64,000 nt of DNA from a virus, in the IMG/VR virus record IMGVR_UViG_3300040771_000047, positions 25,263-89,262 of that record. One strand, given 5' to 3'. Below are positions 4,142 to 55,305 of this stretch, one piece after another. The position numbers and the translations under genes are program-made. The notes beneath the pieces are model-generated. The model saw only the letters and a program-made list of their open reading frames with translations, made no database searches and was not told where the DNA came from. Within the stretch, counting starts at the first letter, position 1. The number at the start of each line of letters is the position of its first letter.

Positions 4142-4207
4142 ATGAAAAATCAAAATCAAATTCAGTTGGGAATTTTACAATTCCTACAGGGTATTTTCTT
4201 ATTCTAA
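4142..4207 (+). CDS. Possible micro-ORF (21 aa)
   Basis: A 21-codon frame with a polar, Gln/Asn-rich start (MKNQNQIQLG) and hydrophobic end, between the genes at 3873 and 4214. It stops 6 bases before the next ATG, so it could be a leader peptide coupled to that gene. Little supports expression beyond start context. Confidence 0.2.
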   Translation: MKNQNQIQLGILQFLQGIFLF

Positions 4208-6593: not shown

Positions 6594-7012
6594 GGGGATG
6601 ACTGGTATTGATTGCTCATACAATGTTACATAATTCAGCACAGAGAGATAACTGTTTAAAACTAAGGTGAACTCAAGTAATTGACAAACAAAACAATAAT
6701 GCCCAAGTACAAGCTAATATGAATGTAGTTCATAACATCTTAAATGGTGGAATATCTGTATCTGTTGATACAGAAGAACTAGCTGTGGCTGCCTAACCAA
6801 AGAATAGGTGATTACCTCAAATTTAGTATTGAGCTTAAATTTTACTATTACACAGTTTGCTAGTATGACAAACTAGATGGTGGAAGTTAACTAGATCAGG
6901 AAATTCCTGGCAGTTGGCCCTTGTCTAACTTAAAGACTTTAAATAAAAGTAAGCTGTAAAAAATTGTGTAATAAAAATGAGTAAGACCCGGGTTCGACTC
7001 CCGGCATCTCCA
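6594..7012 (+). ncRNA. ssrA: tmRNA (transfer-messenger RNA)
   Basis: tmRNA rescues stalled ribosomes and adds a degradation tag. The 5' end GGGGATG (6594-6600) pairs over 7 bp with CATCTCC (7005-7011). A T-arm with stem CCGGG/CCCGG and loop TTCGACT lies at 6988-7004. GCTCAT (6614-6619) pairs with ATGAGT (6977-6982), forming the P2 helix. A tag frame ends GAA-CTA-GCT-GTG-GCT-GCC-TAA (TAA at 6794-6796), giving the classic C-terminus ELAVAA. Upstream, GTAATT followed by GAC-AAA-CAA-AAC-AAT-AAT-GCC aligns with the usual resume region, giving a tag starting DKQNNNA and about 37 residues long, far longer than the roughly 10 of many bacteria. CCA is not encoded. Structure and tag make the call secure; the exact resume codon is inferred. 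Confidence 0.92.
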
Positions 7013-7020
7013 CAATATGA

Positions 7021-7383: not shown

Positions 7384-7458
7384 GGAGAAGTAGCTCAGTT
7401 GGTTAGAGCGTGGGTATGGATATGCCTGAAGTCATAGGTTCAAATCCTATCTTCTCCA
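7384..7458 (+). tRNA. tRNA-like gene with abnormal anticodon arm
   Basis: The acceptor stem GGAGAAG (7384-7390) pairs perfectly with CTTCTCC (7451-7457). The D-arm GCTC...GAGC (7393-7409) and the T-arm ATAGG-TTCAAAT-CCTAT (7434-7450) are canonical. The anticodon arm is not: the only reasonable pairing is GGGTA (7412-7416) with TGCCT (7423-7427) around a 6-base loop TGGATA. If T7417 is U33, the anticodon would be GGA (Ser), but the usual long Ser variable arm is missing. CCA is not encoded. It may be a divergent tRNA, a decaying one or a tRNA mimic. Confidence 0.65.
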
Positions 7459-7479
7459 CACAAATTGCGAACTAAACAA

Positions 7480-37700: not shown

Positions 37701-39726
37701 AGACACTTCTTGGAATATATGTGTTGTATTTAATGTAAGCCGGGAAAGAATTTGTTTGAGTTCCAAAGGTTACAGGTACTTGATTACCACCAGTATTACG
37801 TCTGTTTGTTATAAATGACATTGGGTCATTTCTTTCCATTGTTATTTGAAAATTAACTTTAGCTCTATCTGATAAATCATCAAAATTTTGCACTCTTTCT
37901 TTCTTGAGCAAGTTTGACAATGTGTTTTCCTTCATTTGTAAAAACAAATCAAGATTGTATTTTTGTTCTTCTATAAGACTTTTATATTTAGAAGCTCCAA
38001 TTTTAGCTAAAATATTAGCTTTATAAGCTGCAGCCGCACTTGTATCTCCATTTTTATAAGCATCATACTTTGTACTACCTTCAAAAACATCATGTAATGC
38101 ACTGAAATCAATCCATTCTACATTATGGTCCATAGTATCAAAGAAAGAGTTTAACTCTGTTATAACAGCCACAGGGTCTGTTAAAGTTCTCATCTGTCTA
38201 TTATGATTGATATGAGTATTTGATAAAAAATTGTTCCAACTAGCACTAAATTTTTCTACAAGCTTACTAGAAATCTTACCTCTAATATCTTTTTGTTTAA
38301 ATACGTTGTAATTATATATTTTAGTACCTAAAACAGTAAAGAACATACCTAATCTGCTTAGTTCTTTTTCTCCTATTTTTAAAGTGTCATTAATTTCTTC
38401 TATCAAAGGCTGAATAATAATCTTTTCTTTCTCTTGCTCTAGTTCTAACTCTAGTCTAATGAGTTGGTTAAGCATATCTTCCTTTGCCCACATTTCTTTG
38501 TCAACAGATATTAAATTTGCTTCTACAATACTAGTATCTTTAAGTCTAGTCATCAAAGCATCTCTTAAATCTTGCGCAGTCATACCTTTAAATTCTTCAA
38601 ACTTGTCAAATCTTTGAGAGTGTTTATCTAAAAGTTCTAAGAAAAGGTCATCAAACTTAGAGTTAATACTTACTTTAAGGTCTATAATATCCTTTGTTAA
38701 AGAATTTATTAATTCACTAACTTCAGGTAAGTTAAGTTGATTACTTTCAATGTGAAACATAGCTCCAGTTCTAGTTTGGTCTATGTTTTCAGTAATAAAA
38801 TTAAACATTTCTTCAGCTAGAAATAAATTCTCTAAAGTAGGGTCAGCTAATAAATTCTTTATGACTACTATGTCATCTTCAAAGAAGTCCCTAATTAAGT
38901 CAAACATGTCCAATCCTCTATTGAAGTTATCTATGTCTTTTTCTATAGTTGCTTTTAGCTTATTTAACTCATTAATTCTACTAATAGTTTTAACAGAGTG
39001 ATTCTCCTTATTTATTTCATACAATCTTTGTAAAGTAGAATTAACTTTTTTCAGTAAAGCTTTTTTATGAATAAGATATTTGTCAAAGCTAGGTGTAACA
39101 TAACTTGCTGCACCTGCCGGTGAATTATTAGATATTGCTGAATCATACTCTTCTTCAACATCATCTATGCTAGAGTCATAGTTTTCTAATTCTTCTAATT
39201 CATCAAAAGGAGTTTTACCTCCATCCTCTTGAAACAACCCATCAGGATAATTTTTAGTATTTTCTTGGCCCATCTCAGCTATAAAAGTTTCAACTCTTTG
39301 TGCTTCATTGGTAGTATCTTCTTGAAAAACTTCTTGGTACTTAACAGACTCCATTTCTTGCCTTTCTATGGCTCTTTCCTTTTCTATTCTTCTATATTCA
39401 CCATAACTTAGTTTTTCTTCGTATATACCTAAAGCTTTTCTAGCTGCATCAACCTGCTCAAATGCAGAATCAATTGGTACAACTCTTTCATTGTAAACTT
39501 TTTCGTAAGGAGCTCTATCCAAAGTATTAGAACTTATAGTGTATAAAGCTTCTAATTCTAGTCCGTAGGCTTTATTAGTATCCTTAATTTGTGCAGCATG
39601 AAAAGCATTGAACTCATCTTTTCTAGATAAGTTCAATACTCTTGTTTCATTTATAATCCCGTCTTTCTGTAATGCATCTATAGCATTAAGTTTTGAAAGT
39701 TCATGTTTTAAAATATTACAGCTCAT
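34771..39726 (-). CDS. Large virion protein with membrane-active segments (1651 aa)
   Basis: A 1651-aa protein, the last gene of the right arm. The N-terminal 350 residues are acidic and helical with coiled-coil stretches (Glu/Gln/Lys-rich). The middle is helical and Lys-rich. The C-terminal third has hydrophobic, Gly/Ala-rich segments (about residues 1296-1334, LLAILATSTYAGG then GLIIPVAIAGAAL; and about 1405-1425, ILLVMMSMAAMSL) followed by an acidic RGDDEEDEN stretch. The composition resembles internal proteins of podoviruses that are ejected and insert into membranes. It lies 11 bases after the giant polymerase gene, as do companion giant proteins in crAss-like phages. No enzymatic motif seen. 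Confidence 0.7.
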   Translation of the reverse strand: MSCNILKHELSKLNAIDALQKDGIINETRVLNLSRKDEFNAFHAAQIKDTNKAYGLELEALYTISSNTLDRAPYEKVYNERVVPIDSAFEQVDAARKALGIYEEKLSYGEYRRIEKERAIERQEMESVKYQEVFQEDTTNEAQRVETFIAEMGQENTKNYPDGLFQEDGGKTPFDELEELENYDSSIDDVEEEYDSAISNNSPAGAASYVTPSFDKYLIHKKALLKKVNSTLQRLYEINKENHSVKTISRINELNKLKATIEKDIDNFNRGLDMFDLIRDFFEDDIVVIKNLLADPTLENLFLAEEMFNFITENIDQTRTGAMFHIESNQLNLPEVSELINSLTKDIIDLKVSINSKFDDLFLELLDKHSQRFDKFEEFKGMTAQDLRDALMTRLKDTSIVEANLISVDKEMWAKEDMLNQLIRLELELEQEKEKIIIQPLIEEINDTLKIGEKELSRLGMFFTVLGTKIYNYNVFKQKDIRGKISSKLVEKFSASWNNFLSNTHINHNRQMRTLTDPVAVITELNSFFDTMDHNVEWIDFSALHDVFEGSTKYDAYKNGDTSAAAAYKANILAKIGASKYKSLIEEQKYNLDLFLQMKENTLSNLLKKERVQNFDDLSDRAKVNFQITMERNDPMSFITNRRNTGGNQVPVTFGTQTNSFPAYIKYNTYIPRSVYSNGSQSEFYDKDYEQIENNPILLRMLEAYTASVVATNNRVVGSKLDLDPLSLLHRRKNFREALIDKTWWEIAKYGLAQLLNVKQLIKNELSESQRFAEDSDRSVQLGGQIRSFDKMVISDYNITKTALKNILDVNLNDNSKINFLALSSGKRNGILELLGRENIDDIAPQGTFLVSDLKVISQEKIMAEQTLDLPTTLKAHLEVASEHRARVNTKASVDVIKNRIAKNDEGGKANENRNKKRDAFVKKLVQNENVNEEFANISKALKGNKEGATDYVKFKVIVRKFFYKNLTPQERQIYEIATKRVDNIERQLLTTSNGTLIEKLLTEKKKLEGTVERLGRDYTGAAFVQAVVVKGGMIAGLFYNPVAPFKNFLNGMQSLMMRDGIEGFWTEGTAGKVIHHIILGRLKGRISKKHDEEWKKTVLFIESLRAIENQTTEIQKSENNSKLMQAGNLFTDGMYLTKKVEWTNQSVSLIARAMDILVQHPTRTNADGSPYTVPLFNGTEFQAHEIVEGKLKLKQEWSSPSNIENFEKFSSPDMINWKQGNKSILASLNGDYSQEGSIRFKQKVIGKPMSQYKTWLPNYLYDRFAYNQKSLSTGETHDGFYLGPLLKPKTSTAAMGIHGSKALLAILATSTYAGGMGLIIPVAIAGAALYKMAKDKGTGPLTSVNNQHWNQAKYIAQSLTLGTATTGINFLTAIAMQKNFIPIMKTSLQESATSEQDRKDFANLQLLTKSAQFNILLVMMSMAAMSLRGDDEEDENKGAKGSVQNKRYLAQKAAEEEGSTMKALHNAVGNLLSNLYSELNFADDPTSMYKAIIQNNGVSSFADRLVKLSVDIASADDTIKSGDNAGESKLGNAARKQLPMIIRNYGQDDYNGGLESITRKEYDTDSKIDRWFNSDFKNDKEEAVRVRKEFLEDTRESLRKEFPEATAEEVNSEAIRILNDVANYPETLEELKLIIPERDDYDKEQKEIKN

Positions 39727-39737
39727 ACTTTATTTTA

Positions 39738-42700
39738 TTAAATTGCTAGTCCACCTTCACAAGGTAATTTTTCTTCCTCTGACAAAACTACTTCATTTTC
39801 TTCAGCTACACTATTATTGTCAATCATATTATCAGCATCATCAAATAAAGATGTTTGATTAGGGTCTTTGAATTGCTCTTCAGCCTTTTCATTAAAATTA
39901 AATCCTAAGTCATTAAAGAATCTAATAAAAGCTGCTTTTTCTTCAGCATTTACATTTTCAGCCATCATTTCTTGGTATATCTCTTCTAACTTATATTCTT
40001 CATAGTCTAATGATTCACTTCTACTTATCTGAACATTCCAATTAGTTACAGGTACAGCATAATTTGACATTCTACCATTAAGACTTTTAGCTACTAAAGT
40101 GTCCAAATTTTCTAATGCAAAATCTAAATTATCTTTAGTAATTGGAATATACTCTTGGGAAGCACCGTTATTAACAGGTTTTGCTATATAATACTTACCA
40201 TTAGTAAGTTGATTGTTAATATTTTCTTCATCTAGTTTAGCAAATGTTTCTTTATTAGCTACTAATTGTTTGATTTTATCAACTTCTTTAGTAGTATCAA
40301 TAGTTTGTACACCTAATCTCTTACTGTCTAAACTACCAAGTTGAGAATTTGATAGAAGTTCATAATAAGATAACTGTTGTTCAGCTCTTTCTTTTTCAAT
40401 GAATCTTAGAGACTTCCCTACTGCGTCATGTGCCACACTTCCTTCTTTTAAATTAGGGTAGATGTTTTCCATAAACTTCATTATAGTAGCTAATATTTTA
40501 TCTAGGTAAGATACTCCAGATTTCATATAAGGTACTTGAGACATAGCATCTTGGAAATTTTTACTAGTCAAAGACATAGTCATAAATTCCTTGATATTAT
40601 ACCCAGCATAATAAATACTCTTATCATCCTCAGAAAAAGACAACTTATTATCTTTTTTGAATTTCATACTAGCAATTTCCGCAGCATATTTTGCTCTAAA
40701 CTGACTAAATGAAATATGTAAAGCAGTTACATGAGTAGGTATTGTTACATCCTTTCTAAGGTTTATAAAATCACTATCATAATATTTTTCTAATTCTCTA
40801 GTTGTTATTGTGTGTATGTACTCATGTAAGAAAGTAACAGCAGTTTTTTCTACAGAAACTCCTGTAGTCATTGAAGGTTTTAGTTTTACTTTTAAATCAC
40901 TTACATAAGAAGCTCCGGCTCCAACAATGTCAGTACCTAATTCAAAGCCAATATTTGGATTACCAAATTGCTCTAAGAATTTAGCAGCTTCAGTAATAAA
41001 AGCAAAGTCCTCACTCAAAACTAAATTTTTAATTTTTTCAAGTACTGTACCTACTGTAGTGTCCTCTTCTAATTTTAAGTCTACTGCTTCATTACCTTCT
41101 AATAGTGAGTTGTTTGCTTTAAGGTTTTGAATCTTAGTTTCTCCTAAAGAAAATGCACTAAGTACTCCATATTGATACTCTGAAACACCATTTTGTCCTA
41201 GTAAACTAATTCTTTGGTAATTCATGGCACCTACATTCTGGTATAGAACATAGCTAGTCTTTCCTTTATCTTTTATTGCCATAGACAAAAAAGGTAAATT
41301 CTTGCCTTTAGACTCTTCTTTTAGTGTAAAAGTTCCTTCTGCATTCTTTACATTAGTTATTCCCTTAGAATAGATTTTTGGTGCTAAAGAAGGGTTATGT
41401 TGGAACCTTTGTTTAGTAAATGTACTAAAACTTCCCTCAACAGGTGATAAACCTAGAAGTCTTCCAAACATACCATTTTCTCCACCTTCAGGCGTATTCA
41501 TTCTATTAGGGTTCAAACCTTGTAACTTTCTATTTGCAGATTTAAATACTCTTCTAGCTTCAGACTTACCTTCAGCATTTATGAATCTTGACTGCTCATA
41601 CTTTCCAATAGTCTCTAATACTTCAACTGGTATAAATTTTACAAATTGAGTAGCTTCTTGTACACCACCTTCTAAGTAAGAATAAGCTATTAGGTCTTCA
41701 GCTAACATTCTAGTAGTATATGCTTCACCATTCCTGTTTGGAAGTTTAAGGTTAGACATAATTAAACTTGGAATTGCATTATACATTAACTCTTGATTAT
41801 TGTTATCAACAGATGTATTACTGTAATTAATTAAAGATAACTCTCCCGGAAGCTTACCTGTAATAAATTCAAAAGAACTAATTAATGCATTTTTCTTTAA
41901 TGAACTTATACCTCTTGTATTTGTTGCACTTCTAAGAGTATCTTTTATGTAAGTGGATAATGAAGTATTACTTTCATCATCTATAAGAGTTTCATGTCTC
42001 TTAACTTGAGCATTACCTTCAAAGATGTTATTAGCTTCACTAGAAAAAAGATATTTCTTAATGTCAGTTAAAACTTCTTCATAAGATTCTTCATTAGCTC
42101 TGTCAGGGTCCTTCCCAGATAACCTAAGGTTCTCTTCTACAATTGCAGTTAAGCTTGTATCTTGATAAGGAAAGAAATCTTTAAATAAAGTATGACCTAA
42201 CTGAAGACCTGTAATAGCTATCTGACCTTGTGGAGTTGTTGGTTTTACCCAATACTCACCTATATCATAGTATCCTTCAGGTTTAGTGAAATACATTTCT
42301 TTAGAAAGAAAATCTCCAATTAACTTAGAAGCGTTACCTAGTACACTGTTTTCAGTAATTTTCTTAAGTTTTTCATATTTTAATTGAGACTCAATTATAG
42401 ATTTACCTAAGTTGTTAGTGTCTACAACACTTTGAGCATTAGCTACTTCTGCAACTTCTTTCTCTAGGTTGACATAGTTCATAAGAGCAGCAGCTTGAGT
42501 TTCAGATGTAGTGTCATTCTTTTCAATAGACTCTAACATATTCTTTCCTGTAAGCTTACCTCCCATAAAGTCCTCTACTTCTTGATTATCAATAGCATTT
42601 CTAAACTTCCATATTCCTTTTACTTCTGTATAGATTATACTTCCAGAAGTTAGAGTGGATATTGTAGTTGCTATTAATTCATTTTTATTTATATACTCTC

Positions 42701-45700
42701 CTAATACACCTTTAGCATCTCTTAATTGTTTGTTAAGGTTAACAATTACTGGTTGAGATAACATTAAGAAAGGAATAGAATTACCATTTTCATCTTTGTC
42801 AAATCCCATTAAAGTTAAGTAAGCATCTATGTTGATAGTTTGCTCATTAACTCCTACTCTACCAAGTACTTGTTCTTTCTCATTATCTGTAGCAATGTTT
42901 TCTCTTTCAGCTAATACATCCGCGATACTTCTGCTTCCATCTACTGTCATTTCTTGACCAAGAATACCTTTAGCAGTGTAATTACCTATAGTTAAAGGTT
43001 TAGGATTTCCTTTCTTGTCTCTGATAAAAATTTCACTACCATTTTGTTGTATAAGTCCATTAAGAGTAGTAAAGTTAGCATACACTCCAATAGCAGCTTT
43101 TCCAATAGTTCCTAAATCCATCTTTTGCTTTTGGTAAGCATAAGATAAAAAAGTGAAATTACTATTCATTTGTTCATACTCAAGTTTAGCTTCATCACGA
43201 GAAAGACCCTCTGCTTTTCTTTCGTTAATGTACTTGTTCTTTTCTCCTAAAGAGTTTATTTTTTCTAATTTTTCAGCTTGTTCTTTAGCATAATCAATAG
43301 AAAGTATCTTATTAATTTTACTTTGAATTTTTACACTAGGGTTATTGTAAACAGCTAAATGAACTTTGATAAATTCATTTTCTGCTAGTTTTCTTTCTAG
43401 TTCTGATTCAAGATAGTTTAACTTATCTATGATGTCCAATTGAGGTAAAAGCAAAGATTCTAATGATTCTTCATCCAATAAGTTACCTTGGCCCTGTACA
43501 AAAGCACTGAACAATTCATTTGCAAAACTACTTTTACGAGAAGTACTTGTGTTTTCTAAATTAAACTTTTCAATTTTATCTTTTAGACCTGAAGTTATGG
43601 TTTCAATGTCAGCTCTGTCTAGTACTTTAATTTTACCACTATCAGTTAAAAAGTGGTTTAATTGGTAAGCAGATTCTTTATCAACATCATAATCAAGACC
43701 TTTTTGTTTAGTGAAGTTCTTAGGAACAATCATTAAATCCCCTTGTATAGCTGGAAGTATGCCAACTATTTCTATACTTGAACCAGATACGTGAGAAGAT
43801 GTAGGAGTTCTAAAAGAGAAGTTGTTGAACAACATAGGGTCAATCATATCTTCTTTTAATCCTAGACTTCCATTTTCGTTTCTTTTTAGATACTTAGCAT
43901 TAGCTACGTTTCCTGTCTTTAAGTCAAAACCTTCAAATAAATCAATTAACTCATTGTTGTTATCCTTAAACTTAGAGGTTACAAATACTTGTGCTTTATG
44001 AAACTTAACTTCACCATTTTCAGAAGTTGTATGTGTACCTTGTAATTCTTTACCATTATAGTTATCTAGGTATATAACATCTGATTCTTCAATACCTTCC
44101 ATAGTTTCAGAGTATGCAAAACCACTTTCAGAACCTGCTACAAAAGCATTTCCTGGCATTTTGTGATGCATAACAGCATTACCAATAAGAGAGTTTAATA
44201 AAGACTCATATCTGTTACTGTCAGAAGATAGCCATAGAGGAGTTTTAAATTCATAATAGTATCCTAACTTAGCTTGTAGTTTTTCAATCTTTAAACCTCT
44301 TACAGATTTAAGACTCATACCTTTTGCTATAGCTTCTTTAACTAATAAGTCTTGTAAGTTCTTAACAAATTTAGCTTCATTCTTTACAGTACCATCTTCT
44401 TCTAAGCCTAGTTTAGAAAATAATTGTTTCTTCTTAATGTCAACAATCTTAGCAAAAGATTCATTGTAATGGTCATACAATTGTTTACCAGTAAGAGTTT
44501 CTGTGTCAGTAGGGTTCAATTTAAAACCATCTTCGTTTATAACCCCATCACCAAACAAAAGCTTAAAGAACTGAGTACCCATAGATACTGTATCACTTTT
44601 CTTCTTATCAGATTTAAAAGGTACATCTTGTTGTATTCTAAAGTTATCTCTACTTAAAACAACTACTGAGTTATTAGCTCCATTTTCATCAAATGTTTTT
44701 GTAGCTGCATTGTAACCATTCATTACCTTCTCTAAAGACTGTTTGTCAAAAGGGTTTACTTCATTTTCTGATTTTACACTACCTACCTTATTAGCTGTTT
44801 TAAAGGATGCTCTTACACCATTTCCTGTAGCTTCATGTAGCTCTTCCATTTTCAATCTAAGGTCATTTAACCTGTTCCCTTGTGTGAACTGAGGTAATAA
44901 TGGGAAAGATGAAGACTTAATATAAACTACTCTATTCATGTCCCAACCTTTATTAAAATAAGTTCCTGTATGAACTGGTTTAATTGGCTGAAGAACTATT
45001 GCTAGTTGTTGTTTATTTAAATGTCCTTCTCTTCCCGGCTTAGCTAGAGTAGCAAGGATACCTGCATGCTCTTCATCACTCATTCTACCTAATCTGTAAA
45101 TAATATCTACATGCTCTTTAGCTGTAGTATACTCTTGTGCATCAGTAGATTCAAGGTCAAAATACCCATCCAAGCTAGGAAACTTTTTAGCCAAACCATC
45201 TCTAATTACTTTCATATTAGATTTAGCAGCTGCAAGAATAGCAGGGTCAATTTTGCCTACTCCTTGCTCCATATCAGCTACAACCTTAGCTTCTATGGCA
45301 TATTTTTCTAATAAAGGTTTAGCTTCAGCAATACCTTTTTCTCCGTAAAATAATCCAACTAAATACTCACTGTTCTCAGCAATATCAATACTATCTTTTA
45401 AGAAAATTTGATTGTAGTTTTCTTTGTAAGAGTTTGCTATTTTATTACCTGGAGCTATTAACAGGGCTAATCTTTTTCCAAGATTTACTCCAATTGTTTT
45501 ATTTAAAGAAATGTATTGTTCATCAGTTTTAGTGTTTTCTGGTCCCACTTCTCCAACTTGTTTGTCTTTTGCATACATAGAAACATCTCCTGCAAAGACC
45601 TTAAACAAATCTGCTTGATGTAACATACTGTTTAAGACATAGTCATAAACTCCTAATTTAAAATCTTTAGATGGAGTTAAACTTATGTCAGCTTTTGAAA

Positions 45701-48700
45701 AGTACTCAGCATCAAACATTTTATTACTCTTAACTACTTGTCCTTCCCATAATTTACTGAAGTGGTTCACTTCTTTTTCTACTACATTCTCTAGTGTAGC
45801 TACAAACTTATCTTTGTGAAGTTCTACTATTTTATCATAGTCTAAGTTTCCTTGAGAAGCTAGTTCTCCAAGTATGTCAATAATTCTAACTCCCTTCTCA
45901 TCTTTTACATTGTTCATTCCTGGAATAAGATGAAAAACCTGAGCTGCTTTATCATAGTCAGCTACATTAGTAGACTTAACATTATTATGAAAGTTTACTA
46001 TTCTTTTTAATTCTGAAGCTACTAATTGGTCAAAAAGTAAATCTGTAGTTCTTTTAGTTAAACTTTGATTTCCATTTTCTTTTGGATAAAAAGCTGTACT
46101 TGCATCTGCTAAGAAGTCAAAAACACCTGTTCTAAGAAATACATTAGTAGTCTTGTCAGACATAGTAAGGTTAAGCATGTTTGCCATTCTAATAGTAAAC
46201 CCACCTATTTTAGTATTTTTACTAATTTCTTCACCTTTTCTATCTTGAAAACCTGTAAGAGTTGTCAAGTAGTAGTCCATATCAGATAAATTATTTAACC
46301 CTGCTTTAGTAGGTGTGTCTCCTTTTTCTTTAAAAGCAGTTATACCAACATGGCTAATTTTAAATAAAGATTTAAAGTTTTTGTTTTCTTTTAATAACTG
46401 TAACATTATAGAGTTATCAGAAAAAGATAAACTTTGTAAGTCCTCTATTAAAGTATTATTACTGTCCGAAGCACTTCTCTTAAGTTCAGCTACTCTATCA
46501 GTAATGAACTTAGTAGGAACTTGTGTAGAAATGTCCTTACCTGAATCTCTAAATGCTAGAGAAATAAGTTGAGGATTGTATAACGCTTCTACGGCACTGA
46601 TACCATTTATAACCCCTGACATTTCTTTAAAAACTGTATTTTCAGAAGTAAATTCGTAGTCTAAAGGATTTGCTTTAGCTTCATTTAAAAATTTAAGTAT
46701 AGGGTAAGTTAACCCTCCTGCTTCTAAAGTTAGTAAATCATTAAAATCATAATCTTGTTTATTATAAATACCCTTTGCAACTATTTGGTCCCAACTTCCC
46801 TCTTCTAAATAAAGACCTATTTGTTCTAGCCAAGACCTAAGTTCTTTAGTTCCATTTTCAGTTTTTACATCTATAGCTGCAAATTGTGTCAATAAACTCT
46901 CAGCAAACTCAGCATTAAATGAACCTTCTTTAGTATATAGATTAGAAGCTTTAGTATCATTTATCCATCTTTTCTTTAGTACTCTTGTAATTTCATTCGC
47001 GTTAGTATCATACATCTTAAGCTTAACTCCTGATGCTGTGTTTTCATACATTCCAAATTTAGATTGAAGTGTGTGCTTAACAAAAGTAGTAAGAAACTTG
47101 TTCTTAATTTGTTGACTAGAACCTTCCAATTTAGCTAAAACATCAGCTACAAAAGGAGTTTTACTTTCTTTTAATTTTCTTATTAGTGAGTCATAGTCAG
47201 AAGGTATTTCTGAAGATAATGTAATGTTTTTGGTCAACTGGTTAAAAACATCATTGAAGTCCATATAGGATGGTAAGCCTAAGTACCCACTAACCGGAAC
47301 ACCTTTCTTATCATACACTGCAATACTGTTCAAAAACAATCTAAGGTCAGGGTCTATAGAACCTTTAAAGTCAGCTTCAATAGATTCTTTACCAAATTGT
47401 TTAACATCTAAAATATCTTCTGCATCTGTTTCTGAATCTACAATCTTAGTTTGTTGTTTTAGGTCTTCAAAAGCTTTATCAAAAAGCTTAGTGTACTCAT
47501 TAACAATTGTGTTTAAGTTAGTCAAGGTTTCTTCATACTTATCTTTAACTTGTAAAGATTTAGCATCTGTGTTACCTTCAAGTTTAGCCTGCATTACTGT
47601 AATCTTACTTTTAAGATTGTTTACTATTTGAGTAAGTTCAAACTCAATAGCCACACTTAAATTATTTTTTACTTCAGGAGTAATTTTCTTTTTAGGGTCT
47701 AATTTGTATTCATCTACAATTTTCTTGCCTATGTTAGATACAATAAACTTTCTAATAGCTTGCTCTTGCTCAATATCTAAGTTACCGGTAAGATTAAAAA
47801 TACTAACAATTGCATCAACATTGTCAATCATTTCATCATACAACTCATCTTCTACTTCTATACCTAGAGTATTTAAGAAATCTATGTGTTCACTAACTTC
47901 AACTTTTTTCTTTTCTTCAAGCTTTTTAAATACCGGAGCAACAGTTTCTTCCACTAAAGTAGAAGCTGGTTTCTCTTGTTTAGCTACAGATTTATAGTTT
48001 ATATGAATTACAGGTTGAATTATTGTTGCGTAAATAGGTTTAGCTTCAGTACCTACATTAAAAGCTTTTATGTTAGTTTTAGAGTTAGCTTTAATATAAT
48101 CATGGTAAGTCATTTTCTTACCATCTTTTTGTAGTAGTTCAACTTTTTCTGTACCAACTGCTACCATACCTACTTTAGAACCTAATGCAGCACTCAAAGT
48201 GTGCTGAGTTAGCATATCTTTTGCTATAATATCTTCTATAGAGTAATTAGCAAACAGTCTTTTGTATAATATTAAAGAACTACTATCATAACTTTTTCTA
48301 TCTGTAGGAAGTCTTAATTCCATAAGAGTAGCTGCACTAATTTGAAAATGCATTCTAATAAAATCAGTCAAGTCCTGAATCTTTGAAATATTATAGCCCG
48401 TAGCATCTAGTATAGGGTCTACAAAAGTTTCTATTATATACCTTCTATCTTCTGGAGTATTGTTTGTAGTACTAGGAAAGTTCTCTTGTCTTCCATTTTT
48501 AGCATTAATGGTCTGTCTTTGAGAAACGGCTTTGTACTTATTATCAGAAAGTAAGTTAAAAATATGGATAGCATTTGCGACACTTTCTACTTGACTTGCA
48601 TTAGGATATCTTTCAAATTTACTTGCTCTATAAGTTTCTACAACTTTACCATCAGCCAGTACATCAGTACCTACTCTATACACATAGAAAGAATGTCCTA

Positions 48701-51700
48701 AAGAACTTCCATCAAAATCTTCTTCTTTATTTAATAATACTTTACTTCCTTTTGCAAAACCTTCATCAAGATTTTGAAGTAACCCTTTACTACCTGTTCT
48801 ATTTAAAGTAGCAACAACAGACTGAGGATTAGATTCTTCTAAAGTAATCTGTTCTTGTTCCATAGGAATTACGTACATAATACCTTCTTTACTTCTTCTT
48901 TCTACAGTTACTTCGGTTAAACCTGAATTGATATTTTCTCTTAAAGCTCTGGCATTAGCTATACCTGCATTGATATGATCTTGCCAAGGTTTAGTAGGGT
49001 TAGCTTGATTAGTAGATGGTCCAAAAGGGTTATCAATATCATAAGCATTATACCCATCAATATCTTTTACATAACCTATTGGCTCTCCTTTCATACTAGT
49101 ATAGTACATAGGGACTTTGTCAAGAAATTCTTGAGTGCTTCTAAAGTTAGGGTTAGCAGCTTCTCTCCTAGATAACCAGGAAGAGAATGGAGTAAGAACT
49201 CTTTCTCCTTTAGCATTTCTACCATTTGAAACCATAGTAGTTGCCCAATCTGATTCAGGAGCAATCTTAACTCCCATAGGTGCTCCATTAGGATAAGCAT
49301 CAGGGTCTAATAAAGCTAAGTAATTTACTTTATCAACTGGATTTAATTCAGTTCCAGAAGTTACCTTACGAACTACTCCATCTTCACCTGTAACTATTTC
49401 ATAAGCTTGTGCAGAATAACCTATCCAAGGTGTTAAACCTTGACTAACTCTTTCAGTTAAAGTCTTGTTAGCCTGTTCTACATGAGAAGGATTATTTTCA
49501 TCATCAAACAAAGTATCTTGAACCACTACACCATCAGCAATAGTTTGTTCTAATTTTGCTGTTTGTGTTACCACAGTCTCCACAGGAGGTACAGAAATTA
49601 CTTTCTGAGGACTTTCATACATATTAAAAATAGAATCTGTTATAGACTCTATATCTGATGCAATATCAAAGAACTTATTATACAAGTTCATTGTTTCAGC
49701 ACTAGTAACAGTATGACCTAGTTCAGTCCAACCTCTTACAAGATGATTGTAATACTTCTTAACATTATTTTTATCTTTTGAATACTTATAAAACTGCTCC
49801 ATTACATCAGTAAAACTTGGAGAAGGATTATTAGTAAGAGTTGCAACCATACCATAGATATGGGCAATACCTTTTTTCATCACTTCTAATTGTTCCGGAG
49901 TATAAGCATAGTTATCTATACTGTAATCTATCAGTTCTCCTTCATTAGCAGCAACGTCCTCATCATCAAAACTATCATCTAGGTCTGAAGTGAAATTTTC
50001 TATGTCAGATATGATATTACCTTCTGCATCTTCATCTCTTACTATTACTACTTCTGGAGTAATAGGAGTTTGATTAGGTGTTTCAGCAGCAGCACTCGCT
50101 TGAGCACTTGCTTGCATATCCTTATACCTTTTAAAATTCATAGTTAAAACAGCAAATTGGTCAAATTTAGTTTTGATGTCTTTGTAAGCTTTATCATTAA
50201 TCTTATTGTCAGTTGCCCATTTACCTACAAAGTTTTCTTTGTTCTTTTCAAACAAGAAATCTATAAGTTTAGTATTAACTACAAGTTGCCCCTCTGCATC
50301 AAAAGTAACATTCTCAGTATCATTAAGATACTCATCATCTACGTTGTCAATGCCTTCAGATTTAGTTTTTCTATCTTGTATATCACCCAAGAGGTCTTGC
50401 ATTTCTTTCTCAACTCTTTGCTTATTTATTTCATGTTGAGGTTCAGTTCTAAGTTTAGCTACTATTTTATTAGTACTATCTAAAACTTCTTGCATTTGCT
50501 CTGAAGCTTTTAAACTGTTACTATAGTTAGAAACACCTTCGTGTCCTCTCTCAAGCATCTCCAATTCAGCAGGACTAAATGTAGTATTACCTGGAGTAAA
50601 AATTTCATCTATATTGAAACCTCTTCCCGGATAATCTGCTTCAATCTCTTTACGAGCTTGTACAGAAAGTGTAGAACTGATAGCTTTATTATCCTCAATA
50701 CCTTCTTCTAAGTTCATCTTCTCATATTGAAATTTTAAGAGTTTATTTAATAATGGATGGTCTTTATATACTTCAGATATTCTGTTCAATTCAGTTACAT
50801 GCTCACTAGCTCTTACTAAAGTCTTTTGAGTTTCAACATTTAAACTTCCCTTGGCTCCTGCTCTTTTAAGTACTGTAGATAATTCAGATAATTGACCTGC
50901 TTGCACAGCATTTGAAACTACGTTATTAAACATAAGTTTCTCTAGCATATCAGCAGACTCAGTTTTACCTTCTGCTCTAAATCTTTTAATTTCTTTATTT
51001 TGAAGTTCTATATTGTTAGCCCCTAAAGACTGTATGTTAAGTATTTGATTTAGGTCAGAATCTTTATTAGCAAGTCTTAACCCATTGATAGCTTCTCTTG
51101 TACTATTTCTTGCATCATTGTACTTTCTAATATCAGAGTACTTAGCTTCTTTGTTTGCATTTTTATTAGCTTGTGCTATTGCAGTGTTAGAAGATAAATT
51201 AGCTGCTTTAAAGTTTACAACTTGGTTCTTATATTGTTCAGTTTCATCAATACTAAGAGTACCACTTGCTAACTTAGCTTCAGCATCTTTTATTCTTACA
51301 TTGTTTTCAGCAATGGATTCAGTATGATTCTTTTTTAAAGCAGTGGCCTCATCTATTCTAGCTTGACCTAACTTGTTAACTCCTAGTTGGTAAGAAGTCT
51401 GCATAGAACCAACAGCACCAAATCCAGCATTTAATAATGCTGTTTGAATTAGAATGTCTTTATTTGATTGTAAATCAAAAGTGGTATCCATAAATTCTTT
51501 AGGGTCCCCTTCAAATATACTGTTAACTGCACTTGTAAAATATTCTTCAGGAAGCTCTTCTACAGTACCAGTTATTTTCTGTCCATTAAAAGTTGGCACC
51601 AAAGCTTTACCTGATAATTTCTTATCAAGGAATTTAGTTAGTTTGGTACTGTTAACAAGTTTTGCTCTACCTGTAGCTATTTCTTCTCCCAATTCCCCGA

Positions 51701-53573
51701 CAGCTTTTTCTGTTCTAATAGCAAATTTACCTAGTCCGGAAAATGCGGATTTACCCTTACCTAATTTAACTAATCCCTTGCCTAGATTTCCTAGTAATGC
51801 ACCTGTGTAAACTTCAGCTAAACCTTCAGCAGCTTGTTTTCTAAGTCCAGTCATACTGGCTTCAAACAAACCTAAAGGTCTGAAAGTTTCTATTTCCTCT
51901 TCTAAAGTTTGTTCACCTGCAGAAAACCTTTTACCTAACTTAATTTCCATGTGAGCTACTTCTGCTTCTTCTTCTGGAGTTAAGTTAGCTTTAGCTCCTA
52001 ATGTAGCTAATTTGTTTTTGTAAGATTGTGCAATTCCTTCATTAGTCCTTTGCATCAATTTGTAATAGTTGTCTTGAACATAGATATTTGTAATCTTACC
52101 TTGTTCATCTCTAACTACATTAGAACCTTTGGATAAACCTTCATTTATAAAGTGAGGGTCCATTAAATTCATAGCTTCAAACTTAGCACCAAGTACTGCA
52201 CCATCCATCCCAACAGCTGTTGTTTTGGTAAGCATTTTAGATACTTTATCAGGACCCATACTTCTGTAAAGGTCTTTAGAAGCTTGAGAAATGTAACCTT
52301 TCTCTAAAAAAGCTAACTTTTCTCCTACTTCTGCTACTCTAGTTCCTCTTGCAACTATTCCTGCACCTTTACTTAATAATCCAGCAGCACCTTCAGTTAA
52401 CATCATTTCAGCTATCATATCTAGGGAACCTCCCATTTGATTAATAGTGTTATGACCAAATGATTTCATGTCAGCAGTCTGAGCCTGTGCTTCATCCCTT
52501 AAAGAATAAGATTGTAGCATTGCCATATCCTTCTCAGGAATAGCACTAAGTCTTACTTGAGCTTCTTCATCAGTTTCTCCTTCGGGGCCTACAAGTTGGT
52601 TCTGATATTTCTTTTCTAACTCATCTTTCTGAAAGAAGTTTATTAATTGACTAGTTTGATGAGGAAAAGGTATTATCATTCCTTCCTTTTCATTAGTATC
52701 CACAATAGTAGAAATAAGTTCTCCTATAACGTAACCTACTTTAGGGTCTAGTACATTATCTAAACCTCTAATCTCACGTTCATTATTATAAAGTTCTACA
52801 TTTAGTCTTCCTCTCTCAAATGAGTCAGTACTAGCATCATGCAGTCTTTGTATAGTTTCATTTTGTTTTTGTATCTGCTGCTTTTTAAGCTTAACTCCAG
52901 GAGCTTTAGCTCCTTTAAGCTCTTCTTGCAGCTTTTCTACTTTCTTTTGGTCATTTGATGCAGGTAGTATAGAATCAAATCCTGCATCTAAAAGTCCACT
53001 TACTCCATTTACTAAACTTGGAGCAATGTTTCCAAAACCTTTGGCAATTTTTTCTCCCCACCCAGCATCGGGACCAGACTCTAAGTATTCCATTTTAGAT
53101 ACAGATGCACCTTTAGTTTGCTTAGCTAAAAGGGCATCTAATTCTTGTTGCTTTTGTACAAAAATAGGGTTAGCTTTAGTTTCTTCAGCTATTTTATATA
53201 AAGCAGCTTCTTCTTGTTCTTGAACTTCTGGTGCAACTACAGGTCCAACAGGTTTAACCTTATTAGCTACTGCTTTTCTAGCATCAGCATCTTTTTGCTG
53301 AGCTTGAGCAAGTACTTTTTGTTTATCAGCATAGTCTTTTTTATAAGCTGCTTCTTTTTCAACTAATTCAAGAGCTACTTGTTTTGCTCTTTCTTCTTCA
53401 GCTTGTTTTTTCTCAAAATCTGCAACATACCTAGCAACGTTATCTTGTTCTTCAATTGATAAAGTATTTTTATCAATTTCTTTTTGTATTTTTTCGTATT
53501 CACTTTTTCTGTTTTGAAGAGTTCCTTTATAATCTTCAACGTTAATACCATTTACACGATGTTGCTTACCCAT
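39738..53573 (-). CDS. Giant virion RNA polymerase with zincin motif (4611 aa)
   Basis: This 4611-aa protein matches the giant crAss-like virion RNA polymerases (compare phage phi14:2 gp66) that are packaged, ejected with the DNA and transcribe early genes. The catalytic loop is GLDYDVDKESAY with Asp3294, 3296 and 3298. HEYIHTITT with His4250 and 4254 is an HExxH zincin metalloprotease motif, as reported for this group. N-terminal residues 1-190 are charged coiled coil; hydrophobic/Gly-rich parts follow (about 190-480); about 1175-1215 is acidic linker. The single frame is unbroken over 13.8 kb. At over twice the length of the phi14:2 polymerase, it probably combines polymerase with cargo or processing domains. 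Confidence 0.85.
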   Translation of the reverse strand: MGKQHRVNGINVEDYKGTLQNRKSEYEKIQKEIDKNTLSIEEQDNVARYVADFEKKQAEEERAKQVALELVEKEAAYKKDYADKQKVLAQAQQKDADARKAVANKVKPVGPVVAPEVQEQEEAALYKIAEETKANPIFVQKQQELDALLAKQTKGASVSKMEYLESGPDAGWGEKIAKGFGNIAPSLVNGVSGLLDAGFDSILPASNDQKKVEKLQEELKGAKAPGVKLKKQQIQKQNETIQRLHDASTDSFERGRLNVELYNNEREIRGLDNVLDPKVGYVIGELISTIVDTNEKEGMIIPFPHQTSQLINFFQKDELEKKYQNQLVGPEGETDEEAQVRLSAIPEKDMAMLQSYSLRDEAQAQTADMKSFGHNTINQMGGSLDMIAEMMLTEGAAGLLSKGAGIVARGTRVAEVGEKLAFLEKGYISQASKDLYRSMGPDKVSKMLTKTTAVGMDGAVLGAKFEAMNLMDPHFINEGLSKGSNVVRDEQGKITNIYVQDNYYKLMQRTNEGIAQSYKNKLATLGAKANLTPEEEAEVAHMEIKLGKRFSAGEQTLEEEIETFRPLGLFEASMTGLRKQAAEGLAEVYTGALLGNLGKGLVKLGKGKSAFSGLGKFAIRTEKAVGELGEEIATGRAKLVNSTKLTKFLDKKLSGKALVPTFNGQKITGTVEELPEEYFTSAVNSIFEGDPKEFMDTTFDLQSNKDILIQTALLNAGFGAVGSMQTSYQLGVNKLGQARIDEATALKKNHTESIAENNVRIKDAEAKLASGTLSIDETEQYKNQVVNFKAANLSSNTAIAQANKNANKEAKYSDIRKYNDARNSTREAINGLRLANKDSDLNQILNIQSLGANNIELQNKEIKRFRAEGKTESADMLEKLMFNNVVSNAVQAGQLSELSTVLKRAGAKGSLNVETQKTLVRASEHVTELNRISEVYKDHPLLNKLLKFQYEKMNLEEGIEDNKAISSTLSVQARKEIEADYPGRGFNIDEIFTPGNTTFSPAELEMLERGHEGVSNYSNSLKASEQMQEVLDSTNKIVAKLRTEPQHEINKQRVEKEMQDLLGDIQDRKTKSEGIDNVDDEYLNDTENVTFDAEGQLVVNTKLIDFLFEKNKENFVGKWATDNKINDKAYKDIKTKFDQFAVLTMNFKRYKDMQASAQASAAAETPNQTPITPEVVIVRDEDAEGNIISDIENFTSDLDDSFDDEDVAANEGELIDYSIDNYAYTPEQLEVMKKGIAHIYGMVATLTNNPSPSFTDVMEQFYKYSKDKNNVKKYYNHLVRGWTELGHTVTSAETMNLYNKFFDIASDIESITDSIFNMYESPQKVISVPPVETVVTQTAKLEQTIADGVVVQDTLFDDENNPSHVEQANKTLTERVSQGLTPWIGYSAQAYEIVTGEDGVVRKVTSGTELNPVDKVNYLALLDPDAYPNGAPMGVKIAPESDWATTMVSNGRNAKGERVLTPFSSWLSRREAANPNFRSTQEFLDKVPMYYTSMKGEPIGYVKDIDGYNAYDIDNPFGPSTNQANPTKPWQDHINAGIANARALRENINSGLTEVTVERRSKEGIMYVIPMEQEQITLEESNPQSVVATLNRTGSKGLLQNLDEGFAKGSKVLLNKEEDFDGSSLGHSFYVYRVGTDVLADGKVVETYRASKFERYPNASQVESVANAIHIFNLLSDNKYKAVSQRQTINAKNGRQENFPSTTNNTPEDRRYIIETFVDPILDATGYNISKIQDLTDFIRMHFQISAATLMELRLPTDRKSYDSSSLILYKRLFANYSIEDIIAKDMLTQHTLSAALGSKVGMVAVGTEKVELLQKDGKKMTYHDYIKANSKTNIKAFNVGTEAKPIYATIIQPVIHINYKSVAKQEKPASTLVEETVAPVFKKLEEKKKVEVSEHIDFLNTLGIEVEDELYDEMIDNVDAIVSIFNLTGNLDIEQEQAIRKFIVSNIGKKIVDEYKLDPKKKITPEVKNNLSVAIEFELTQIVNNLKSKITVMQAKLEGNTDAKSLQVKDKYEETLTNLNTIVNEYTKLFDKAFEDLKQQTKIVDSETDAEDILDVKQFGKESIEADFKGSIDPDLRLFLNSIAVYDKKGVPVSGYLGLPSYMDFNDVFNQLTKNITLSSEIPSDYDSLIRKLKESKTPFVADVLAKLEGSSQQIKNKFLTTFVKHTLQSKFGMYENTASGVKLKMYDTNANEITRVLKKRWINDTKASNLYTKEGSFNAEFAESLLTQFAAIDVKTENGTKELRSWLEQIGLYLEEGSWDQIVAKGIYNKQDYDFNDLLTLEAGGLTYPILKFLNEAKANPLDYEFTSENTVFKEMSGVINGISAVEALYNPQLISLAFRDSGKDISTQVPTKFITDRVAELKRSASDSNNTLIEDLQSLSFSDNSIMLQLLKENKNFKSLFKISHVGITAFKEKGDTPTKAGLNNLSDMDYYLTTLTGFQDRKGEEISKNTKIGGFTIRMANMLNLTMSDKTTNVFLRTGVFDFLADASTAFYPKENGNQSLTKRTTDLLFDQLVASELKRIVNFHNNVKSTNVADYDKAAQVFHLIPGMNNVKDEKGVRIIDILGELASQGNLDYDKIVELHKDKFVATLENVVEKEVNHFSKLWEGQVVKSNKMFDAEYFSKADISLTPSKDFKLGVYDYVLNSMLHQADLFKVFAGDVSMYAKDKQVGEVGPENTKTDEQYISLNKTIGVNLGKRLALLIAPGNKIANSYKENYNQIFLKDSIDIAENSEYLVGLFYGEKGIAEAKPLLEKYAIEAKVVADMEQGVGKIDPAILAAAKSNMKVIRDGLAKKFPSLDGYFDLESTDAQEYTTAKEHVDIIYRLGRMSDEEHAGILATLAKPGREGHLNKQQLAIVLQPIKPVHTGTYFNKGWDMNRVVYIKSSSFPLLPQFTQGNRLNDLRLKMEELHEATGNGVRASFKTANKVGSVKSENEVNPFDKQSLEKVMNGYNAATKTFDENGANNSVVVLSRDNFRIQQDVPFKSDKKKSDTVSMGTQFFKLLFGDGVINEDGFKLNPTDTETLTGKQLYDHYNESFAKIVDIKKKQLFSKLGLEEDGTVKNEAKFVKNLQDLLVKEAIAKGMSLKSVRGLKIEKLQAKLGYYYEFKTPLWLSSDSNRYESLLNSLIGNAVMHHKMPGNAFVAGSESGFAYSETMEGIEESDVIYLDNYNGKELQGTHTTSENGEVKFHKAQVFVTSKFKDNNNELIDLFEGFDLKTGNVANAKYLKRNENGSLGLKEDMIDPMLFNNFSFRTPTSSHVSGSSIEIVGILPAIQGDLMIVPKNFTKQKGLDYDVDKESAYQLNHFLTDSGKIKVLDRADIETITSGLKDKIEKFNLENTSTSRKSSFANELFSAFVQGQGNLLDEESLESLLLPQLDIIDKLNYLESELERKLAENEFIKVHLAVYNNPSVKIQSKINKILSIDYAKEQAEKLEKINSLGEKNKYINERKAEGLSRDEAKLEYEQMNSNFTFLSYAYQKQKMDLGTIGKAAIGVYANFTTLNGLIQQNGSEIFIRDKKGNPKPLTIGNYTAKGILGQEMTVDGSRSIADVLAERENIATDNEKEQVLGRVGVNEQTINIDAYLTLMGFDKDENGNSIPFLMLSQPVIVNLNKQLRDAKGVLGEYINKNELIATTISTLTSGSIIYTEVKGIWKFRNAIDNQEVEDFMGGKLTGKNMLESIEKNDTTSETQAAALMNYVNLEKEVAEVANAQSVVDTNNLGKSIIESQLKYEKLKKITENSVLGNASKLIGDFLSKEMYFTKPEGYYDIGEYWVKPTTPQGQIAITGLQLGHTLFKDFFPYQDTSLTAIVEENLRLSGKDPDRANEESYEEVLTDIKKYLFSSEANNIFEGNAQVKRHETLIDDESNTSLSTYIKDTLRSATNTRGISSLKKNALISSFEFITGKLPGELSLINYSNTSVDNNNQELMYNAIPSLIMSNLKLPNRNGEAYTTRMLAEDLIAYSYLEGGVQEATQFVKFIPVEVLETIGKYEQSRFINAEGKSEARRVFKSANRKLQGLNPNRMNTPEGGENGMFGRLLGLSPVEGSFSTFTKQRFQHNPSLAPKIYSKGITNVKNAEGTFTLKEESKGKNLPFLSMAIKDKGKTSYVLYQNVGAMNYQRISLLGQNGVSEYQYGVLSAFSLGETKIQNLKANNSLLEGNEAVDLKLEEDTTVGTVLEKIKNLVLSEDFAFITEAAKFLEQFGNPNIGFELGTDIVGAGASYVSDLKVKLKPSMTTGVSVEKTAVTFLHEYIHTITTRELEKYYDSDFINLRKDVTIPTHVTALHISFSQFRAKYAAEIASMKFKKDNKLSFSEDDKSIYYAGYNIKEFMTMSLTSKNFQDAMSQVPYMKSGVSYLDKILATIMKFMENIYPNLKEGSVAHDAVGKSLRFIEKERAEQQLSYYELLSNSQLGSLDSKRLGVQTIDTTKEVDKIKQLVANKETFAKLDEENINNQLTNGKYYIAKPVNNGASQEYIPITKDNLDFALENLDTLVAKSLNGRMSNYAVPVTNWNVQISRSESLDYEEYKLEEIYQEMMAENVNAEEKAAFIRFFNDLGFNFNEKAEEQFKDPNQTSLFDDADNMIDNNSVAEENEVVLSEEEKLPCEGGLAI

Positions 53574-53586
53574 AATATTGCTTTAT

Positions 53587-55305
53587 TTAGTCTGTATCTA
53601 CTCTTATTCCTAAGTTGTTAAAAGTGGTAACAAAGTGTAAAGGTACACCATTTACTTCAAACTCAAAGGAATTTTTATTATTATGAAACTGTGAAGGATT
53701 ATCAGTTAAAATAATAGGCATTTCAGAACCTTTTACAAAGTAATCTCCAGTTCTTTTAGCTTTAGTATTTTTAGAAGCAGCTGGTCCTCTTCGAGCTCCT
53801 CCTATTGTTGTTTTAGTTTCTTCAGTTGTTGCATCTGCTTCAGTTACACCACTAAAATCTTCTTCTGTAAATCCATAAAGCTCTGGATTATTTTTTATAT
53901 CATAAAAAGATTTATTTTTTACATGTATAGTTTTACCTGCACGATTTCTTATATCAAAATCCCCTTTTACACCATATAAGTTAGCAGGGTCTTCTGTATA
54001 CGCTCCTACTGCTTTTTGAATAGCAACTGTTGCAGCTACACCTAATACTTCAGAAGTTGCTCCATAACCAATGTTTAACCTTTCTGTATACAATTTACCT
54101 ATTTGAGTATATTGTTCACGTAACTTTTTAGCTTCAATACTTCCTTCTGGCATTTTAGCAATAGTTGCATCTAAGGCTTCTTTAATACCTTTTACACTCA
54201 TTTCTTTTCCAGCTCCTTGTCGTGGCATTTTTAATGTGTCAAAAGCAAATGAGTTTAAAGCATCATTGTATTTTTGATTAACTAAAAGTAAATCTTTCTT
54301 CTTAGTTAACACAATGTTTTTAGATACACTTCCTAAAAGATTAGTCTTGTCTGACTGTGTTTTTGCGTATTGTTCTTGTTGCCATTCATAATGACTATTA
54401 ACTTTTATACTACGTCTAGTATCTTGTTCTTTTACTTCATAGGCTATACCTGCAGCTTGTGCTTTTCTTCCAAAGAAATTGTCTGGATTTATAGTTTGTA
54501 CTTGTTGTCCTTTTTTATTTACTGAAGTATTGTATGCTCTATTAATATCAACATCTTCATACCCGGCAACTCCCGAAGCACTCCAATCATTTAAAGCTGT
54601 TTGATAGTTAACATCTGCTCCAGCTGCAGCTAAATAAGCTTGTTGTATTTCTCCTTGTGTAAGTATCTTATTATCATCAGAACTAGTGTTAATCCAAGCT
54701 CCTGATACACTATCTCTTTCAACTTTTTTACCTTTAGCTTTCATTTGAGCTAAGAATTTGTCATCAAATTCAGGATGATAGTATGTACCATCTACTTTAA
54801 GAGTGCCAGTAGATTGTTTAGTTGCATCATTATATCCTAATCCATTCTCATAGCCTGAGAAAATTTCTTTTTTCTTAATGGCTACATAATTAGCATCTTC
54901 TGGATGTGCCTTAAGATGGTCATTTAATATTTGTATTTCAGCTTCTGCTTTCTTTTTATTATTCTGCATAGTTCCAATAGGACCTGTAGTCCAATCAGCA
55001 CTAATATCTCTACCAAGTTTAGTAATGTCCCCTGTGTACTTATTGTACTCCATAGGATTAGCTTGTATGTTTTCTACAATACCACTTATCTTACCTTCAT
55101 AGTCAGCAATTCTCTTCTGCAAAGCAGGAGTATCTTGTATTAAAGATTCAGCTTTAAGTTTTTCTAAGTAAGAATTAGCACTTGCAATAGTGTCATCTAC
55201 AGCTTTTTCTTTGTTCATAATAACATTAGCCATAAGTTCAGCAGGTGCTTGATACATTTTATTATCAATAAAATGAGGTTGTGACGTTTCGTAGAATCTA
55301 CCCAT
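53587..55305 (-). CDS. Internal/structural virion protein (572 aa)
   Basis: A 572-aa protein with a long helical, coiled-coil N-terminal half (DDTIASANSYLEKLKAESLIQ and following) and a mixed, Lys-rich C-terminal half ending in beta-rich EFEVNGVPLHFVTTFNNLG. No family recognised. It sits 13 bases upstream of the giant polymerase gene and overlaps the previous gene, in the position of the cargo proteins of crAss-like phages. Confidence 0.65.
   Translation of the reverse strand: MGRFYETSQPHFIDNKMYQAPAELMANVIMNKEKAVDDTIASANSYLEKLKAESLIQDTPALQKRIADYEGKISGIVENIQANPMEYNKYTGDITKLGRDISADWTTGPIGTMQNNKKKAEAEIQILNDHLKAHPEDANYVAIKKKEIFSGYENGLGYNDATKQSTGTLKVDGTYYHPEFDDKFLAQMKAKGKKVERDSVSGAWINTSSDDNKILTQGEIQQAYLAAAGADVNYQTALNDWSASGVAGYEDVDINRAYNTSVNKKGQQVQTINPDNFFGRKAQAAGIAYEVKEQDTRRSIKVNSHYEWQQEQYAKTQSDKTNLLGSVSKNIVLTKKKDLLLVNQKYNDALNSFAFDTLKMPRQGAGKEMSVKGIKEALDATIAKMPEGSIEAKKLREQYTQIGKLYTERLNIGYGATSEVLGVAATVAIQKAVGAYTEDPANLYGVKGDFDIRNRAGKTIHVKNKSFYDIKNNPELYGFTEEDFSGVTEADATTEETKTTIGGARRGPAASKNTKAKRTGDYFVKGSEMPIILTDNPSQFHNNKNSFEFEVNGVPLHFVTTFNNLGIRVDTD

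Follow-up and report, generated by a model that had tools for sequence, protein, structure and literature searches.

In the crAss-type, Fipvunavirus-like phage described here, a 4611-aa open reading frame probably encodes a single-chain RNA polymerase that would be ejected from the virion together with an ejection-associated zincin, which is most likely not needed for polymerase maturation. One chain would join an N-terminal part resembling crAss001 gp47 and phi14:2 g067, a two-barrel polymerase of the gp66 type, and a C-terminal zincin. Nucleotide positions refer to the window, the whole stretch of 64,000 nucleotides that was analyzed (it spans 25263-89262 in a virus record 89,262 bases long).

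The frame (39738..53573, minus strand) begins with ATG and has no internal stop, compared to 189-763 stops in each of the other five frames. It contains one DxDxD-type motif, DYDVD at residues 3294-3298 (43680..43694, minus strand), and one HExxH motif, HEYIH at residues 4250-4254 (40812..40826, minus strand). An earlier note on this DNA had reported a single unbroken frame with these two motifs, and we confirm it, with the ORF on the minus strand. As a protein of such size and composition is expected to contain about 1 DxDxD and 0.05 HExxH by chance, a DxDxD on its own is no proof, and the motifs needed the support of homology. Both were settled by the match of the polymerase profile to phi14:2 gp66 (E 4e-46) and by the location of HEYIH in a conserved zincin-fold domain. 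Single motifs are cheap, and HEYIH could in principle be a chance motif in what is merely a large polymerase. This reading has almost no credibility left and, provided that the predicted fold is right, is rejected because of the low expectation for HExxH, the clade-wide conservation, the confidently predicted zincin core and the profile homology to the C1 domain of N4 virion RNA polymerase (vRNAP). Whole-protein searches of Pfam and the PDB gave no matches; matches in these came solely from alignments of relatives. Hydropathy indicated no transmembrane segments in the 4611-aa protein.

Among named phages, Flavobacterium phages in the genus Fipvunavirus are closest to the window phage. Family phrog_16227 (4401 positions) covers the 4611-aa protein over its full length (E 0), and gene order is shared as well, with products of 1783, 628, 732, 4401 and 1596 aa in Fpv1 versus 1851, 773, 572, 4611 and 1651 aa in the window, the two middle genes being similar but not equal in length. 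Upstream are the 572- and 773-aa genes (53587..57626, minus strand) and the gene of a 1851-aa virion structural protein (phrog_15100; 57655..63210, minus strand), all ordered as in Fpv1. Family match and gene order together place the 4611-aa protein among the giant proteins of the Fipvunavirus type. The downstream 1651-aa gene (34771..39726, minus strand) belongs by family profile to the phi14:2 g065/crAss001 gp49 family but lacks the zincin and any HExxH; its family profile matches the non-zincin parts of crAss001 gp49 (6e-16) and phi14:2 g065 (9e-8). The Fpv1 protein of 4401 aa (ANB40275), annotated merely as "structural protein", shows 46% identity to the window protein (residues 1269-4409) and carries DYDID at 3222 and HEVIH at 4179, positions equivalent to those of DYDVD and HEYIH, whereas the first 1250 residues and the tail at the C terminus can barely be aligned. 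Since Fpv1 has a giant protein of like size with both motifs, neither size nor fusion is peculiar to the window phage.

Some other features of these phages were observed. The window carries a tmRNA gene at 6594-7015 (plus strand; Rfam RF00023, 64 bits) with the tag VDTEELAVAA according to ARAGORN. A tmRNA above the cut-off was also found in Fpv1 and in seven IMG/VR relatives, so that it looks conserved in the clade; phi14:2 scored one bit below the cut-off. A tRNA gene at 7384-7459 (plus strand; Rfam tRNA, 58 bits), whose anticodon ARAGORN read as four bases long (ggat) without assigning an amino acid, possibly has an unusual anticodon loop. In pig-gut phage cr273_1 (L007), annotated CDS of the transcription block (4735-28269) contain TAG codons in frame, which agrees with reports of TAG recoding among crAss-like phages.

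The polymerase region, of the phi14:2 gp66 type, occupies approximately residues 1800-3800 (42174..48176, minus strand), and the three Asp of its DYDVD catalytic loop do not vary among 44 relatives. A profile built from 44 relatives over residues 2641-3780 had a single PDB sequence match, 6vr4 (phi14:2 gp66), in an alignment that spans ~856 to 1807 and includes the catalytic DFDID. The AlphaFold model of the region (pLDDT 83.5, pTM 0.83) matched 6vr4 as well (E 1e-29, TM 0.61), no other match being below 0.001; the weaker structural matches were cellular RNA polymerase large subunits. Judged by model and profile, this is a crAss-like two-barrel virion RNA polymerase, and the 6vr4 match places both predicted barrels in one chain. 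The RNA polymerase catalytic loop claimed in the earlier note is thus borne out, and because model and profile agree on 6vr4, the double-psi beta-barrel around residue 3296 on which that claim depended is predicted to be present. An N4-like (Schitoviridae) vRNAP was also considered and rejected, as the polymerase part is of the two-barrel type and not a T7-like single-subunit domain. The window polymerase would work like N4 vRNAP, yet is by sequence and model not N4 vRNAP.

Transcription of early phage genes has been shown for the phi14:2 polymerase (PMC7886860). The annotations of phi14:2 g065-g067 rest on MS/MS, and crAss001 gp47, gp49 and gp50 were detected in virions by mass spectrometry (PMC10172136). 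By analogy with phi14:2 and crAss001, and from the Fpv annotation, we infer that the window protein is packaged in the virion and transcribes early genes.

The excess length over phi14:2 gp66, which the earlier note had ascribed to extra domains, is accounted for by fused neighbors, namely a gp47/g067-like N-terminal region and the C-terminal zincin. The N-terminal region (~residues 1-1750; 48324..53573, minus strand) is fast-evolving. Its profile matches crAss001 gp47 38-1026 (E 2e-9; window residues 267-1205) and phi14:2 g067 244-751 (E 2e-4; window residues 511-1146), and also phi14:2 g066. At the other end, the tail of residues 4410-4611 (39741..40346, minus strand) is poorly conserved (0-14% identity to Fpv1), and model confidence is low from ~4400.

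The zincin-fold domain was delimited by model and profiles to residues 4166-4384 (40422..41078, minus strand). In the model of residues 4040-4450, two helices (H135-143 and H149-161 in model numbering), three strands, the HExxH helix (H202-223, with HEYIH) and a helix (288-297) with E4329 at its start are predicted with high confidence. This predicted order is that of the zincin core described in PMC5512222, and we assign the domain, on its model, a zincin metallopeptidase architecture consisting of a small beta sheet, an HExxH helix and a Glu on a later conserved helix. The zincin motif is thus predicted to sit within a metalloprotease fold, as the earlier note supposed. Foldseek against the PDB returned N4 vRNAP first, followed by small gluzincins, BlaR1 and M1 peptidases, at E values of 0.05 or worse. 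Among predicted viral structures (BFVD), the model matched Fpv, phi14:2 g065 (2e-6), a phiKMV-like internal core protein (2e-6), an N4-like vRNAP (2e-4) and polyvalent-domain proteins. Weak Pfam matches to SprT-like proteins in 25 of 35 zincin domains (0.06 for the window) are an echo of the fold, and membership in that family was rejected. A single-sequence search for relatives of the zincin in IMG/VR was unsuccessful.

The presumed third zinc ligand is E4329 (40587..40589, minus strand). Together with F4330 it is kept in every aligned relative (37/37 rows, from relatives picked for an HExxH downstream of DxDxD, the HExxH being the sole selection criterion). The Glu-Phe pair is also kept in the degenerate zincin copies inspected, so its conservation alone is no proof of zinc binding. 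Within the supported clade to which the window belongs, each of the 18 rows has an intact HExxH, even though domain identity to most of them is 24-35%. The window zincin has all zinc ligands in its sequence and is probably active.

The zincin domain of the window clade aligned by hhalign with 11 Schitoviridae C1 domains at 97.7% (E 2e-12), with the HExxH and the Glu-Phe helix in register, compared to at most 0.3% for shuffled and reversed controls; HExxH is invariant in 11/11 aligned N4-type domains. This profile-level homology indicates that the window zincin belongs to the clade of N4 vRNAP C1 and ejection-protein zincins. The best PDB sequence matches of the zincin profile were the PhiM1 ejection protein 8vb2, limited to the Glu-helix half, and the phiKMV-like internal virion protein 9sfn_G. 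The latter carries HEAVH, and a segment of it gave tblastn matches to N4-like vRNAPs from two phages, Nepra and Kc283. Given that the N4 polymerase is T7-like, the same domain is carried by two unrelated polymerases, and its homology to both N4 C1 and phiKMV-like internal virion proteins suggests that it accompanies ejected proteins and not one polymerase fold. What zincin carriers have in common would then be that short-tailed virions eject them, and not a part in transcription.

Polymerase-zincin fusion is the rule: both motifs occur in one ORF in 34 distinct IMG/VR relatives, 853-1086 aa apart (956 in the window). In phi14:2, HExxH is absent from g066, and HEIMH is found at residue 245 of the next gene, g065. 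The window zincin profile matched the g065 stretch around HEIMH (E 8e-13), the gene at the equivalent place of a pig-gut crAss phage (3e-8) and KpCHEMY26 vRNAP (2e-6), with the best shuffled control at 4.8. From these matches, the giant protein corresponds to a g067-like part plus a g066-like part plus the zincin, and the gene border that follows the polymerase lies behind the zincin in the window and before it in phi14:2. A second zincin was seen in a downstream ORF of three relatives (L019, L032 and L038) and earlier in the same ORF of another (L040, residue 1093). These second copies lie before or behind the polymerase, and zincin domains seem to be gained and lost in this region. The window lacks the HEAFH-type zincin that gut crAss phages (cr118_1, crAss001 gp47) carry upstream; this upstream zincin may be related to the C-terminal one, whose profile matched crAss002 gp32 at E 0.0035.

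The earlier note had suggested that the protease might cleave the polyprotein during virion maturation or after entry. An unbiased profile census showed that the first His is changed to Lys or Glu in some relatives, while the Glu, the second His and the Glu-Phe are kept. The degenerate forms include KEAVH, KELMH, KETVH, EEVVH, EEMLH and KEYAH, and a degenerate C-terminal zincin is present in the polymerase ORF of L031, L037, L038, L040, L043, L054, L059 and L060; HExxH is intact in most relatives outside the window's clade. In every degenerate copy the first His was replaced and never the Glu or the second His, a pattern that looks non-random. On the tree there are at least four first-His changes, a count that does not separate losses from gains and that includes some long-branched rows. 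In four of these relatives (L031, L037, L054 and L059), no other HExxH was found in ORFs of at least 200 aa within 28-60 kb around the polymerase, some of the records being fragments, which led us to reject a rule whereby no phage is without an intact zincin in this block. Their polymerase chains nevertheless measure 4245-6563 aa.

Self-processing, in which the zincin cuts the giant polyprotein in the head or after entry to free the polymerase from its N- and C-terminal partners, would agree with the separate g067, g066 and g065 genes of relatives, which imply that separate chains work, with the placement of the zincin at the border of the polymerase and the g065-like part, and with the self-cleavage proposed for P1 DdrB and polyvalent proteins generally (PMC5512222). 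However, giant chains persist without an intact zincin in those four relatives, phi14:2 still has an intact zincin even with its chain already divided among g067, g066 and g065, and N4 vRNAP, with a homologous domain, is packaged full-length and unprocessed (PMC5512222) and was purified without degradation (PMC12633501). Obligate cutting of the polyprotein is weakened by these observations; we find the cleavage proposal unsupported and self-processing improbable.

At least four lineages no longer have the first catalytic His, so proteolysis may be dispensable, or the domain may be structural. A structural or regulatory domain with vestigial catalysis, helping to pack or thread the polymerase or to keep it inactive, would explain why the fold is retained while the first His is repeatedly lost, and the C-terminal domain of N4 vRNAP, with its homologous zincin, does inhibit the polymerase (PMC12633501). 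Against it stand the intact HExxH throughout the window clade and in most other relatives, and its invariance in the N4-type domains. We regard this explanation as a minority possibility, if a somewhat better one than self-processing.

The reading that we favor is an ejected polymerase with an ejection-associated zincin. The protein would be packed as cargo in the head and ejected through the tail, perhaps with the partial unfolding of ejected cargo that has been proposed for crAss001 (PMC10172136), and the ejected polymerase would transcribe the early genes of the incoming DNA. Most likely, the zincin would act during or after delivery, on candidate targets such as co-ejected cargo, the envelope or host proteins; the target itself is a guess. 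In a broader proposal, to which we give an even chance, one mobile zincin module was joined independently to crAss two-barrel polymerases, to T7-like N4 virion polymerases and to non-polymerase ejection proteins for a common delivery-time job, and became a pseudo-protease in several crAss-like lineages through loss of the first His.

Giant crAss-like virion polymerases were already known, and so was the zincin on N4 polymerases. What is added here is the same zincin, on the same side, on two unrelated polymerases, and also in phiKMV-like internal virion proteins. The idea of a maturation protease is thereby turned into a testable question about the role of ejected phage proteins while crossing the cell envelope, for which the natural His-to-Lys/Glu variants are ready-made comparisons. 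Neither the crAss-N4 zincin homology nor the repeated first-His loss appears to be described in the literature examined, although an earlier description of the zincin in Yutin 2018 or in the phi14:2 structure paper is possible; the crAss-phage papers examined do not mention a protease for this block.

Several known systems resemble parts of this arrangement. Protein A0A345MT41 of crAssphage ctbg_1 bears the name "Putative RNAP associated protein fused to zincin protease", a public annotation that already connects the crAss transcription block with a zincin, but by name the fusion is to an RNAP-associated protein, and the fold match is weak (E 0.012). Polyvalent proteins (Iyer et al., 2017; PMC5512222) are packaged, multi-domain proteins with a zincin-like MPTase as hub, and they include N4-like RNA polymerases; crAss phages have 0 occurrences in that paper. 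In Thermus phage P23-45, the giant virion protein gp96 (5002 aa) likewise unites a metallopeptidase domain with a two-barrel virion RNA polymerase (PMC10770324), but there the polymerase occupies the N-terminal end of a tail tape measure protein. The phiKMV-like internal virion protein (9sfn_G; LKD16 gp37) and PhiM1 gp48 (8vb2) are internal ejected proteins that have this zincin core, the match to 8vb2 covering its Glu-helix half, and carry no RNA polymerase. The polymerase itself finds its counterpart in phi14:2 gp66 (6vr4), a two-barrel, single-chain enzyme as in the window protein, although gp66 has 2180 aa and its N-terminal partner g067 and the zincin (the N-terminal part of g065) are encoded by separate genes. 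In overall layout the window protein is like the N4-type vRNAP, a giant ejected protein in which a homologous zincin follows directly on the polymerase, but whose polymerase is an unrelated T7-like single-subunit enzyme and whose C1 domain is followed by a large C2 domain (PMC12633501).
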